64,000 nucleotides of DNA, taken from Halobellus sp. MBLA0158 (GTDB taxonomy: Archaea; Halobacteriota; Halobacteria; Halobacteriales; Haloferacaceae). A program made the translations under genes and the position numbers. Positions within the stretch are counted from its first letter, which is position 1. Each line of letters begins with the position of its first letter. This document shows positions 27,868 to 31,786 of this stretch, piece after piece. The stretch lies in the NCBI RefSeq assembly GCF_041477585.1, contig NZ_JBGNYA010000001.1, forward strand, positions 434,001 through 498,000, written 5' to 3'. The notes beneath the pieces were generated by a model that was given only the letters and a program-made list of their open reading frames with translations, did no database searches and was not told where the DNA came from.

Positions 27868-27902
27868 GCTACTCGACCTCGCTACTCGACCTCGCTACTC
27901 GA
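27868..27902. repeat. 13-base tandem repeat after trpS
   Basis: The unit GCTACTCGACCTC occurs twice in tandem and then partly a third time. It lies between the converging trpS and amphi-Trp genes and overlaps the stop codon of the latter. Simple slippage is the likely origin. Confidence 0.8.
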
Positions 27903-28176
27903 TCGAGAGGTCGCCGCCGGCCGCCTCGCTCGCGCCTTCCTTCCACTCGATCTCGAACTCGATGGAGAGTTCGCCGTTCCCCTCTGTGGGCCCCTCGCGC
28001 TCGGCCTTCACCTCGAAGGCCGCCGTCGCGGGCGGATCCATCGTGATCGACTGCCCGCCCGCGGAGAGGGTGATCGCCCCGCCCGACTCTAGCTTCTCGG
28101 CGACCTCGCGGAGGTACGACGCGATCGCCGCTCGGTCCTGGGTGCTCTCGGACTCGAAGAGGACTTCTTCCGGCAT
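27895..28176 (-). CDS. Amphi-Trp domain protein
   Basis: A 93-residue haloarchaeal protein of the amphi-Trp family. It begins MPEEVLFESESTQDRAAIASYLREVAEKLESGG (helix) and continues with antiparallel strands (AITLSAGGQSITMDPP, FEVKAEREG, LSIEFEIEWKEG) that carry the alternating pattern of the family. The cellular role of this family is not known. The start at 28176 has a TATA-like box on the minus strand at about 28201-28207, giving a leaderless mRNA. It lies divergent from the pheST leader. Confidence 0.75.
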   Translation of the reverse strand: MPEEVLFESESTQDRAAIASYLREVAEKLESGGAITLSAGGQSITMDPPATAAFEVKAEREGPTEGNGELSIEFEIEWKEGASEAAGGDLSIE

Positions 28177-28251
28177 ACGTCTCCCTTCGCCGCACAGGCC
28201 CATAAACGCGCGCTCGATTCACCGTGCTAACGATCCGCACGATTTCGCAAC

Positions 28252-28259
28252 GGTTTTGT
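28252..28259 (+). promoter_or_regulatory. Candidate pheST TATA-like box
   Basis: The T-rich GGTTTTGT lies about 30 bases before the leader-ORF ATG at 28283, so transcription would start at or just before that ATG. No better box is seen closer to pheS. The match is weak. Confidence 0.3.
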
Positions 28260-28282
28260 CGGCGGCGGGTCCACCCACGCGT

Positions 28283-28369
28283 ATGCGCCACGGACCCGAC
28301 TCCGCGCGCGGCGTCGCCCGCCGATCGACCGACTCCGACGGGTCCGGCTTCTTTTTCGGGACCGCCTGA
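28283..28369 (+). CDS. Putative Phe-rich leader peptide of pheST
   Basis: A 28-codon ORF in the pheST leader. It begins MRHGPDSARG and ends SGFFFGTA, with three consecutive Phe codons (TTC TTT TTC, 28349-28357) and a stop three codons later. Leader peptides rich in the regulating amino acid are known upstream of bacterial phe and pheST genes. The ORF is too short for the usual gene tests and its codon pattern proves little. The T-run TTCTTTTTC that encodes the Phe codons could instead be an oligo-T terminator. Supporting context: the start is at the place where a leaderless mRNA from the box near 28252 would begin, and no other gene lies on this strand before pheS. Confidence 0.45.
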   Translation: MRHGPDSARGVARRSTDSDGSGFFFGTA

Positions 28370-28413
28370 CGACGGCGGACCCGGGGCCGGGGGGCGCCGA
28401 CGTCCCGGCCCGG
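28291..28413 (+). promoter_or_regulatory. Attenuator-like pairing segments in the pheST leader
   Basis: Segment 1 (CGGACCCG, 28291-28298) is perfectly complementary to segment 2 (CGGGTCCG, 28339-28346). Segment 3 (28376-28383) is an identical copy of segment 1 and can pair with segment 2 instead. A further hairpin (28381-28391 with 28404-28413, 10 pairs plus one bulge) overlaps the end of segment 3. Segment 2 is directly followed by TTCTTTTTC, which would serve as a terminator tract after the 1:2 hairpin. Alternative structures are visible; their function is inferred. Confidence 0.45.
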
Positions 28414-28517
28414 CGAAACCGTCCGATCCGGTCTCCCTGGCAGCGAAGCCCGCGGTCTTCGGAACTGCTAACTGGCGGCCGCGCAGTAGACGCGACAACG
28501 ACTCCCCGATATCCAGA

Positions 28518-30029
28518 ATGAAGCTCCCCGAATCACAGGTCGCGGCGCTGAACGCCGCGAGCGCGACGGACGAGACGCCGATCGATCGACTCGCCGAGGA
28601 GGCGGGCCTGAAGCCCGAGACCGCGACGCAGGCGGTCTTCGAGCTCCGCGACGAGGGCCTGCTTGAGGTCACAGAACGCGAGTCGGTCGAGTACGAACTG
28701 ACAGACGAGGGCGCCGAGTACGTCGAGTCGGGCCTCCCAGAGGTGCGGCTGTACCGCACCGCCGTCGAGGCCGGCACCGACGACGCCCCGGCGCAGATGG
28801 GCCGAATCATCGGTGCCTCGGGCCTTGAAGGCCCTGAGATCGACATCGCCCTGGCGAACTTCGGCCGGAAGGGCTACGGCGACATCGACAGCGGCGAGCT
28901 CTCGGCCGATCCCGACGCCGACGCGGACGACGACCCCGAGGCAGCCGCGCTGGCCGCGCTCGCGGAGGGCGGGGCCGTCGACGACGTCGATGCCGACGTC
29001 CTCGATCAGCTCGTCTCCCGGAATCTGCTGGACCGCCACGAGCGCGTCGTCCGGACGATCACACTAACCGACGCGGGCGTCACCGCGCTGATGGAGGGCA
29101 TAGAGACCGCCGAGACGGTCGACCGGCTCACGCCCGAGATGCTCACCTCCGGCGAGTGGCAGGACGTGGAGTTCACCGAGTACAACGTCGAGGCCGACGC
29201 GCCCGAGGTCCGGGGCGGCAAGACCCACGTCCTCCGCCAGACGGCCGAGCGCGTGAAGGACGTCCTCGTCGGGATGGGCTTCCAGGAGATGGAGGGCCCC
29301 CACGCCGACGCGGACTTCTGGATCAACGACTGCTTGTTTATGCCGCAGGACCACCCCGCGCGGACCCACTGGGACCGCTTCGCGCTCGACGTGCCGCCGA
29401 TCGAGCACCTCCCCGAGGACCTGGTCGACCGCGTCGAGTCCGCCCACCGCGAGGGCGTCGGCGAGGACGGCGACGGCTATCACTCGCCGTGGTCGGAGGA
29501 CTTCGCCCGCGCGGTCGCGCTCCGCGGCCACACCACGTCGCTGTCGATGCGCTACCTCTCGGGGACGGAAGTCGGCGAACTCGAACCCCCGCAGCGGTAC
29601 TTCTCCGTCGAGAAGGTCTACCGCAACGACACGCTGGACGCGACCCACCTGCTGGAGTTCTTCCAGATCGAGGGCTGGGTGATGGCTGAAAATCTTTCAG
29701 TCCGGGATCTGATGGGCACCTTCGTGGAGTTCTACGAGCAGTTCGGCATCACCGACATCCAGTTCAAACCGCACTACAACCCCTACACCGAGCCCTCCTT
29801 CGAGCTGTTCGGCAAGCACCCCACCACGGGCGAACTCATCGAGATCGGCAACTCCGGGATGTTCCGCGACGAGGTGCTCGAACCGCTCGGCGTCGAACAC
29901 GACGTGATGGCGTGGGGCCTCGCCCTGGAACGACTGGCGATGCTGACCACCGGCGCCGAGGACATCCGCGATCTGCACGGCACGCTAGCTGATCTGGACT
30001 TCCTCCGCGGCGCGGAGGTGACCTACTGA
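28518..30029 (+). CDS. pheS: Phenylalanyl-tRNA synthetase alpha subunit
   Basis: Catalytic subunit of the class II heterotetramer that charges tRNA-Phe. It has 503 residues. The N-terminal ~130 residues hold winged-helix-like domains (EEAGLKPETATQAVFELRDEGL) and the catalytic core follows, with class II motif 1 (around GFQEMEGPHADADFWIN), motif 2 (PQRYFSVEKVYRND) and motif 3 (GLALERLAML). It overlaps pheT by TGATG (stop and start share one base), so expression is coupled. The ~235-base gap to the predicted upstream promoter is unusual for this organism's leaderless style and carries the candidate attenuator. Confidence 0.97.
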   Translation: MKLPESQVAALNAASATDETPIDRLAEEAGLKPETATQAVFELRDEGLLEVTERESVEYELTDEGAEYVESGLPEVRLYRTAVEAGTDDAPAQMGRIIGASGLEGPEIDIALANFGRKGYGDIDSGELSADPDADADDDPEAAALAALAEGGAVDDVDADVLDQLVSRNLLDRHERVVRTITLTDAGVTALMEGIETAETVDRLTPEMLTSGEWQDVEFTEYNVEADAPEVRGGKTHVLRQTAERVKDVLVGMGFQEMEGPHADADFWINDCLFMPQDHPARTHWDRFALDVPPIEHLPEDLVDRVESAHREGVGEDGDGYHSPWSEDFARAVALRGHTTSLSMRYLSGTEVGELEPPQRYFSVEKVYRNDTLDATHLLEFFQIEGWVMAENLSVRDLMGTFVEFYEQFGITDIQFKPHYNPYTEPSFELFGKHPTTGELIEIGNSGMFRDEVLEPLGVEHDVMAWGLALERLAMLTTGAEDIRDLHGTLADLDFLRGAEVTY

Positions 30030-31786
30030 TGCCCGTCGTCGACATCGACCCCGACGAACTCCGCGAGCTGACCGGTCACGACGAGAAGGACGACGAAGAA
30101 CTGAAATCGGACCTCTTCGGCCTCGGCCTGGAGTTCGAGGGCGAGACCGAAGACGGGCTCTTGCAGTTCGAGTTCGGGCCCGACAGGCTGGATCGCCTCT
30201 CGGTCGAGGGCGTCGCGCGCTCGCTGCGGTACCACTACGGCGACGACCGCGGCGTCCGGGTGCCCGACACCAACGACCCCGACTTCACCTACGTCGTCGA
30301 CGAGGACGTCCCGGACGAGCGGCCGTACGTCACGGGCGCGATCGTCCGCGGCGTCGACCTCGACGAGCGGAGTCTGGACTCGCTGATCCAGCTCCAGGAG
30401 AAGCTCCACGCCACGATGGGCCGCAAGCGCGCGAAGGGCGCGATCGGCATCCACGATCTGGTCGCGATCAAGGGCGAGGTCCTCCGCGAGGACGCGTCGG
30501 GCAACTCCATCACCTACACCGGAATCGAGCCCGACGACGACACCTTCGTCCCGCTCGACAGCGACAGGGAGCTGACGCCCGCGGAGGTCTTGGAGGAACA
30601 TCCGACCGGCGAGACCTACGCCGACATCGTCGCCGACTACGACCGCTACCCCGCGATCTACGACGAGCTCGGGCTGTTCTCGTTCCCGCCGGTCATCAAC
30701 GGCCGCCGGACCGAGGTCTCGACGGACTCGACGGACTTGCTCGTCGAACTCACCGGCACCGACCAGTGGACGATCGACCGGATGTGCAACATCATCTGCT
30801 ACGCGCTCTCGGCGCGCGGGGCGACGATCGAGGAGGTCGAAATCGAGTATGGGGATCGTACCCTGGTCCGCCCGGACTTCGAGGTCGAGACCAAGTCGGT
30901 GAGCCACGATCGCATCGAGACGATGCTCGGCGTCGACTTCGAGCCCCGAGAGGTGATCGATCTGTTCGAGCGCTCCGGGCTGGACGCCGTCGTCGCGGAC
31001 GACGAGGGCGCGAACGCGGACGAGGGCGAATCCGGCGATGGCGACGCCGCTACCACCTACGACGTGTCGATCCCGCCGTACCGCGTCGACGTGCTCCACC
31101 CGCTCGACCTCGTCGACGACGTCGGCCGCGCGTACGGCTTCGACGAGATCGAACCCCGATACCCCGACATCGGGACGGTCGGTGGGCGCCACGAGCGCTC
31201 GCGCCTGGAGGCGGCGACCCGGAACACGCTCACCGGGCTGGGCTTCGAGGACCTCCTGAACTTCCATATGACCTCGGAGGAGGAGGCCTACGACCGGATG
31301 AACGTCGAGGCCGGGACCGAGTACCTCGGCGGCGGCGAGCCCGTCGAGATCACCGAGCCCTACAGCGAGGACTACACCATCCTCCGGCAGTGGGCGCTGC
31401 CCTCGCTTGTGATGGTCTTGGAGAACAACACCCACCGCGCCTACCCGCAGGACCTCGCGGAGGTCGGGCTCGTGGCCGAGCGCGACGACGACGTGAACAC
31501 TCGCGTGCGCGAGCGCCGGCACGTCGCGGGCGTGCTCGCGCGCCACGACGCGACCTACGAGGACGCCAAGGCCCGCCTGCAGGCGATCTGCCGGGACTTC
31601 GACGTCGACCTCGCGACGCCGCCGACCGACCATCCCTCGTTCATCGACGGCCGCGTGGCCGCGGTCGAGATCGACGGCGAGGCGGTGGGCGTCGTGGGCG
31701 AGCTCCACCCCCGCGTCTTGGTCGAACACGACCTCGAACTGCCGGTGGCGGCCTTCGAGTTCGAGCTCGACGCGCTGGCGGACTGA
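30029..31786 (+). CDS. pheT: Phenylalanyl-tRNA synthetase beta subunit
   Basis: Second subunit of the heterotetramer, 585 residues (archaeal type, shorter than bacterial). The B3/B4 editing domain, which hydrolyses Tyr-tRNA-Phe, is seen in the first half (the GRKRAKGAIGIHDL and FPPVINGRRTEVSTDSTDLLVE segments). The B5 DNA-binding-like domain follows and then the catalytic-like B6-B7 (RLEAATRNTLTGLGFEDLLNF, EITEPYSEDYTILRQWALPSL). Its start codon shares one base with the pheS stop. Confidence 0.96.
   Translation: MPVVDIDPDELRELTGHDEKDDEELKSDLFGLGLEFEGETEDGLLQFEFGPDRLDRLSVEGVARSLRYHYGDDRGVRVPDTNDPDFTYVVDEDVPDERPYVTGAIVRGVDLDERSLDSLIQLQEKLHATMGRKRAKGAIGIHDLVAIKGEVLREDASGNSITYTGIEPDDDTFVPLDSDRELTPAEVLEEHPTGETYADIVADYDRYPAIYDELGLFSFPPVINGRRTEVSTDSTDLLVELTGTDQWTIDRMCNIICYALSARGATIEEVEIEYGDRTLVRPDFEVETKSVSHDRIETMLGVDFEPREVIDLFERSGLDAVVADDEGANADEGESGDGDAATTYDVSIPPYRVDVLHPLDLVDDVGRAYGFDEIEPRYPDIGTVGGRHERSRLEAATRNTLTGLGFEDLLNFHMTSEEEAYDRMNVEAGTEYLGGGEPVEITEPYSEDYTILRQWALPSLVMVLENNTHRAYPQDLAEVGLVAERDDDVNTRVRERRHVAGVLARHDATYEDAKARLQAICRDFDVDLATPPTDHPSFIDGRVAAVEIDGEAVGVVGELHPRVLVEHDLELPVAAFEFELDALAD

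Follow-up and report, generated by a model that had tools for sequence, protein, structure and literature searches.

In enteric bacteria, pheL-pheA and pheM-pheST are under ribosome-mediated attenuation, which depends on a leader peptide in which the cognate amino acid is abundant, hairpins that overlap its open reading frame (ORF), and a U-tract terminator. The pheST leader in a 64,000-nucleotide stretch of Halobellus sp. MBLA0158 DNA (the window) raises the question of whether an archaeon might control its phenylalanyl-tRNA synthetase (PheRS) genes in a similar way, since it shares with the enteric leaders a short, cognate-rich peptide before pheST, hairpins overlapping the ORF, and a U-tract. 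A preliminary description of the window had proposed a candidate attenuator on these grounds. We compared the leader with those of 80 named haloarchaeal pheS loci, giving 81 loci with the window. We conclude that some form of charge-sensing leader-peptide control of pheST is very likely, and that a ribosome-mediated, amino-acid-specific attenuator is a probable form of it. The features of the locus are as follows.

27853: end of trpS, upstream of the leader
27895-28203, minus strand: divergent amphi-Trp protein gene, upstream of the leader
28246-28258, plus strand: P1, predicted core promoter CGCAACGGTTTTG with BRE CGCAACG and a TATA-like TTTT, from sequence and conserved spacing
28283-28369, plus strand: leaderless leader ORF of 28 codons, MRHGPDSARGVARRSTDSDGSGFFFGTA and stop, from sequence and homologues
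28291-28298, plus strand: hairpin A 5' arm CGGACCCG, within ORF codons 3-6, from covariation
28339-28346, plus strand: hairpin A 3' arm CGGGTCCG, ending just before the Phe-codon U-tract, from covariation
28349-28357, plus strand: Phe codons TTC TTT TTC, forming the U-tract, in a conserved Phe slot; T5C at 28352-28357
28371-28375/28419-28423 (outer stem) and 28381-28391/28404-28413 (inner stem), plus strand: hairpin B, with purine internal loop CGGA/GAAA, from RNAalifold and pair counts
28460-28474, plus strand: P2, conserved promoter-like box CGGAACTGCTAACTG
28518-30029, plus strand: pheS, PheRS alpha subunit, the presumed regulated gene (NCBIfam NF003210, 592 bits, cut-off 350)
30029-31786, plus strand: pheT, PheRS beta subunit (NCBIfam TIGR00471, 442 bits, cut-off 283), its start overlapping the pheS stop

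The leader ORF and its promoters

The 28-codon ORF, with TTC TTT TTC near its end, lies exactly where the preliminary description had placed it, with its ATG (28283) 235 nt from the pheS ATG (28518). The P1 BRE/TATA stands about 29 nt upstream of the leader ATG, which is the spacing expected for a transcript starting at that ATG, so the ORF should be leaderless. At 61 of the 81 loci we found a short ORF that fits the pattern M-x-x-E-x ... G-F-G-F-F-F-A-stop, within 170-330 nt of pheS and with a P1-type promoter; in nearly all of these 61, the P1-type element (CGNAACGnTTTT) is equally far from the leader ATG. Among the loci that lack the leader are those of genera with another gene close 5' of pheS (Halonotius, Halohasta, and some Natronomonas). 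R2, a covariance model covering the entire leader, has rough E-values and strict filters that may miss some genomes; it matched 237 of 292 Halobacteria genomes, representing 67 of 77 genera. All of the best 30 matches, which we inspected, were directly upstream of pheS, and in a phylum-wide sample none among the matches listed came from beyond the window's own order. As with the enteric attenuators, the ORF directly 5' of the gene is short and carries cognate codons in a run.

The preliminary description had worried that the ORF might be accidental, given that the T-run also encodes the Phe codons. When leaders were detected without regard to frame, by hairpin, U-rich tract, and promoter, 49 of the 51 cases were in frame and open. 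One of the remaining two (L083) was an alternative match at a locus where the genuine leader does keep the frame, leaving L066 as the single true exception. The length from ATG to motif ranges from 54 to 123 nt in steps of 3, the Phe slots have T at codon positions 1-2 and C or T at position 3, and Phe makes up 35% of the last ten leader codons (211/610), compared with 3.8% in PheS. Because the frame is conserved and the codon pattern kept, an accidental ORF is excluded, and the leader ORF appears, L066 excepted, to be under coding selection. The central part of the peptide is unconserved, and the two ends correspond to the RNA arms and the Phe codons. In L066, a metagenome-assembled genome, the promoter, hairpin, and U-tract are intact about 190 nt upstream of pheS with the Phe motif out of frame, which may reflect a sequencing error or decay.

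A second promoter-like element lies closer to pheS. The P2-type box (CGGAACnGnTAACTG), with BRE/TATA spacing, is found 5' of pheS at 74 of the 81 loci, those free of the leaderless ORF included, and the commonest distances from its TA to the pheS ATG are 29, 34-35, or 45 nt. The window's TA, at 28469, predicts a start near 28497, which falls within 28370-28518, the interval in which the preliminary description had taken a transcription start as refuting its proposal. From this predicted promoter near pheS, pheST may also be transcribed in a way that bypasses the candidate attenuator. A sigma-70 promoter scan of the window was uninformative, the host being an archaeon.

Hairpins around the Phe codons

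Hairpin A pairs transcript nucleotides 8-16 with the nine bases that end just before the Phe codons. Mean pairing between these segments is 8.5 of 9, compared with 1.4-5.2 when the alignment is slid, and the arms show compensatory changes (GAACCC/GGGTTC, GAATCC/GGATTC, GAACGC/GCGTTC); at L078 the peptide motif has changed and the stem is retained. Both arms are thus conserved, lie inside the ORF, and could be disrupted by a translating ribosome. Hairpin B follows just 3' of the stop codon, beginning 15.3 +/- 1.6 nt past the Phe slot (55 loci), and both its outer and inner stems covary around an internal loop, YGGA/GAAA, that is nearly invariant. Over the 19 pairs of the two hairpins, 93.6% of cells are paired, against 24-47% when slid, and 14 of the 19 pairs show compensatory changes; RNAalifold yields both hairpins unprompted. 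A plain pattern search of the genome for hairpin B returned mostly chance-like matches in GC-rich sequence. Taken together, comparison of the sequences shows that the ORF with its Phe codons, the predicted hairpin A, the candidate U-tract, and the predicted hairpin B are conserved as a unit directly 5' of pheS.

This arrangement differs from the switch that had been envisaged, in which the segment CGGGTCCG at 28339-28346 would pair with either of two identical partners, CGGACCCG, at 28291-28298 and 28376-28383. We confirmed all three segments at these coordinates. The pairing of 28291-98 with 28339-46 recurs across Halobacteria with covariation, and so does the proposed third hairpin (28381-28413), which proves to be the inner stem of the larger hairpin B. 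The pairing of 28339-46 with 28376-83, in contrast, is present in the window but shows no covariation beyond shuffled controls across relatives; the 28376-83 segment is conserved because it forms part of hairpin B. Among relatives, therefore, the ORF, the Phe codons, the first pairing, and the third hairpin of the preliminary description all hold up, whereas the switch between partners does not, and we found no covarying antiterminator pairing that would be mutually exclusive with hairpin A.

The near-invariance of the internal loop between covarying stems is what would be expected of a site for a ligand or protein, and the purine loop of hairpin B may be a protein-binding site. This raises the alternative of PheRS autoregulation, in which PheRS or some other protein would bind hairpin B by analogy with E. 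coli thrS, with the peptide playing a secondary part. The 3' strand of the loop contains GAA, the anticodon sequence of tRNA-Phe, although this is a resemblance only. Such autoregulation would leave the conserved ORF, its frame, its Phe codons, and hairpin A unexplained, and the trpS2 leaders described below indicate a codon-based sensor; we therefore regard it as improbable.

We also considered other identities for these paired segments. A DNA palindrome serving as a protein operator is unlikely, with arms 24-99 nt apart and downstream of the start site. T-box riboswitches likewise regulate aminoacyl-tRNA synthetase genes according to tRNA charging, but they do so by binding tRNA directly, whereas the haloarchaeal leader would sense charging by means of a translated ORF; we obtained no T-box match, and an Rfam scan at lax thresholds gave only a chance-level snoRNA match. 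Hairpin loops of 93-99 nt occur in three Natrinema leaders (L054, L056, and L079), and the ORFs of L054 and L056 contain an internal duplication of the RERRTCSGV...RERRTCSGV type.

A parallel in tryptophan leaders

Leaderless Trp-rich ORFs such as MVSTSHANCWRWHAFREVDSIAV and MTAALEWQWRWQIPSRADSSFAAGDAA precede trpS2, a second tryptophanyl-tRNA synthetase gene, at 37 of 38 loci examined. These WQWRW-type leaders (L085-L089, L094, L095, L210, L270-L291, L293-L299) are found on both plasmids and chromosomes in many haloarchaea; the window's own genome has no trpS2. Their Trp codons lie in the loop of a hairpin whose arms covary (GTCCACTTCCC/GGGAAGTGGAC, GTCCGCTCTC/GAGAGCGGAC, GTCGGCTCTCCG/CGGAGAGCCGAC), with 90.6% pairing, compensatory changes at 6 of 11 pairs, and a covariation score that 0 of 500 shuffles reached. 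No argument for charge sensing is stronger than this double cognate match, Phe codons before pheST and Trp codons before trpS2. The trpS2 parallel suggests that the design has recurred and is not an isolated curiosity. The trpS2 leaders have no U-run at their Trp codons, and their output step may not be that of pheST.

A crude scan of 6-10 relatives recognized no cognate leader ORFs before ileS, valS, leuS, thrS, other PF00587 class II synthetases, tyrS, chromosomal trpS, or trpE-like genes, and no leader was found close to pheA in 14 genomes. A different short leader, MYPSATAGGRFWPTTAH, precedes a different trpS on Haladaptatus plasmids (L092, at -104, and L093, at -105); its Phe-Trp codons lie in a TGGTCG...CGACCA hairpin accompanied by a TTTT run.

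Transcripts carrying both kinds of leader appear to have been seen before. Babski et al. (2016, PMC4983044) used dRNA-seq in Haloferax volcanii to place a 26-amino-acid uORF (2772 Da, pI 5.9) in the 5' UTR of pheS (HVO_2948) and, from mapped transcript starts, a 23-amino-acid uORF in that of trpS2 (HVO_A0127). The leader that we identified in a Haloferax-like genome, MASEPKRGARASEPTTDGFGFFFLTA, encodes 26 amino acids (2792 Da, pI 5.9), and from the agreement in size (26 amino acids with pI 5.9, and 23 amino acids) we infer that the uORFs of Babski et al. are the same elements as the pheS and trpS2 leaders. That study listed them as possible small proteins, proposed no function, and did not describe their Phe and Trp codons, how the RNA folds, whether the elements are conserved, or any regulatory role (PMC4983044).

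Those earlier data also bear on whether the ORF could instead encode a small functional peptide, or P1 drive a separate small RNA, with pheS itself expressed from P2 and its proximity incidental. Small proteins and short RNAs are abundant in Haloferax (PMC4983044, PMC12482152), and a P2-like box is conserved even at leader-free loci. Against this, the peptide has an unconserved middle and ends that map onto RNA arms and Phe codons, the cognate match extends to both Phe-pheST and Trp-trpS2, and the H. volcanii dRNA-seq places the uORF in the pheS 5' UTR while reporting no additional start at pheS (PMC4983044). We consider this reading highly improbable.

From stalled ribosome to pheST expression

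The codons chosen in the leader suggest that the tract they form matters as RNA as well. TTT fills 24% of Phe slots (51/211), compared with 5.2% of Phe codons in pheS, and where the motif reads FVF, the Val codon is GTT in 9 of 9 cases, compared with 4.1% in pheS. Given this over-use of both TTT and GTT, U-richness seems to be selected in addition to Phe. The preliminary description had singled out the T-run as able to terminate transcription, and this idea gains from the comparison: a candidate U-tract is conserved just 5' of pheST, and the window's version, TTCTTTTTC, contains T5C (TTTTTC), a sequence that terminated 95% of transcripts in vivo in H. volcanii (Berkemer et al. 2020, PMC7237163). 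The Phe codons hold the identical TTTTTC; the Haloferax terminators are intergenic and at gene ends, however, whereas the window's T5C sits inside a leader ORF, downstream of a hairpin. In about a quarter of the leaders the U-tract is only TTCTTCTTC-like and its T-runs never exceed 2, and terminator strength must therefore vary. Between the leader ORF and pheS we found no terminator hairpin with U-tract; the sole T-run is the Phe-codon tract within the ORF, behind hairpin A.

We propose that P1 would produce a leaderless RNA whose start coincides with, or is adjacent to, the AUG of a short reading frame that closes with codons of the Gly-Phe-Gly-Phe-Phe-Phe type. With ample Phe-tRNA, the ribosome would finish and leave, hairpin A would form, and between it and hairpin B the U-tract would be exposed; transcription would then end before pheS, either intrinsically or through the archaeal termination factor FttA (aCPSF1). 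When charged Phe-tRNA is scarce, the ribosome would stall at the Phe codons, where it would cover the U-tract as well as the 3' arm of hairpin A, and the polymerase would read through to pheST. Hairpin B, which lies about 15 nt further downstream, might pause the ribosome or the polymerase. The preliminary description had left the sign of control unclear, noting that a ribosome stalled at these codons would cover the 3' arm. Because it would cover the U-tract too, it is plausible that starvation favors read-through. In both the Phe and Trp leaders, a ribosome at the cognate codons would cover the 3' arm of the hairpin, and hairpin formation, the presumed off state, would be blocked precisely when the cognate tRNA is uncharged, which is the sign expected for an aminoacyl-tRNA synthetase gene.

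The order of events constrains the output step. The polymerase would have moved beyond the Phe codons before a ribosome could reach them. Intrinsic termination at T5C could therefore not be Phe-sensitive alone, and control would have to run through FttA-type or later termination, or through another step. The RNA bound by FttA is U-rich and lies at -30 to -36; mutual exclusion of ribosome and FttA has already been proposed (PMC11616081). The leader does contain a U-tract of the sort that FttA would need some 30-36 nt behind the polymerase, and FttA-dependent termination would fit the geometry of ribosome and polymerase. Both FttA termination as described and the step proposed here need exposed U-rich nascent RNA (PMC11616081, PMC8716108); a gene-specific, amino-acid-dependent use of it was not found described in the open-access literature. 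Compared with the pheL and pheM attenuators, the haloarchaeal leader is thus archaeal and leaderless, its U-tract consists of the Phe codons inside the ORF rather than lying beyond it, it lacks a covarying antiterminator, and its output factor is probably FttA rather than bacterial intrinsic termination.

Masking of the U-tract is the step that we put forward most tentatively, and we would lean slightly against it. A stalled or released ribosome might instead alter mRNA folding and so affect pheS translation or the decay of leader RNA, with no termination at the U-tract. The trpS2 leaders also place an ORF in a hairpin yet have no U-run at their Trp codons, the TTCTTCTTC variants are weak U-tracts, and the purine internal loop of hairpin B is invariant, all of which such later control could accommodate. 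Selection for TTT and GTT in the Phe slot nonetheless argues that U-richness itself matters, we did not find conserved pairing with the pheS start region, and P2 would yield transcripts free of the leader. Control at a later step therefore seems unlikely.

In the open-access literature we found no description of a translated leader peptide that controls a gene in an archaeon. We regard the case as evenly balanced for a whole haloarchaeal class of amino-acid-sensing leader peptides (Phe-pheST and Trp-trpS2) that are leaderless and set in a covarying hairpin, with the Phe sensor codons doubling as a U-tract terminator shielded by the stalled ribosome. Such a class, if real, would provide the first example of ribosome-mediated attenuation from Archaea. 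Leader-peptide control requires transcription coupled to translation and a termination step open to blocking by ribosomes; for Archaea, both points are under debate. The class-wide conservation of the 235-nt element and its presence in the tractable H. volcanii make these questions of coupling and termination testable by reporters.

Alongside the attenuated transcript, P2 would supply a basal, unattenuated one. Conservation of the P2 box (CGGAACnGnTAACTGnCGACC) extends further downstream than a core promoter requires, and the box could include an operator.
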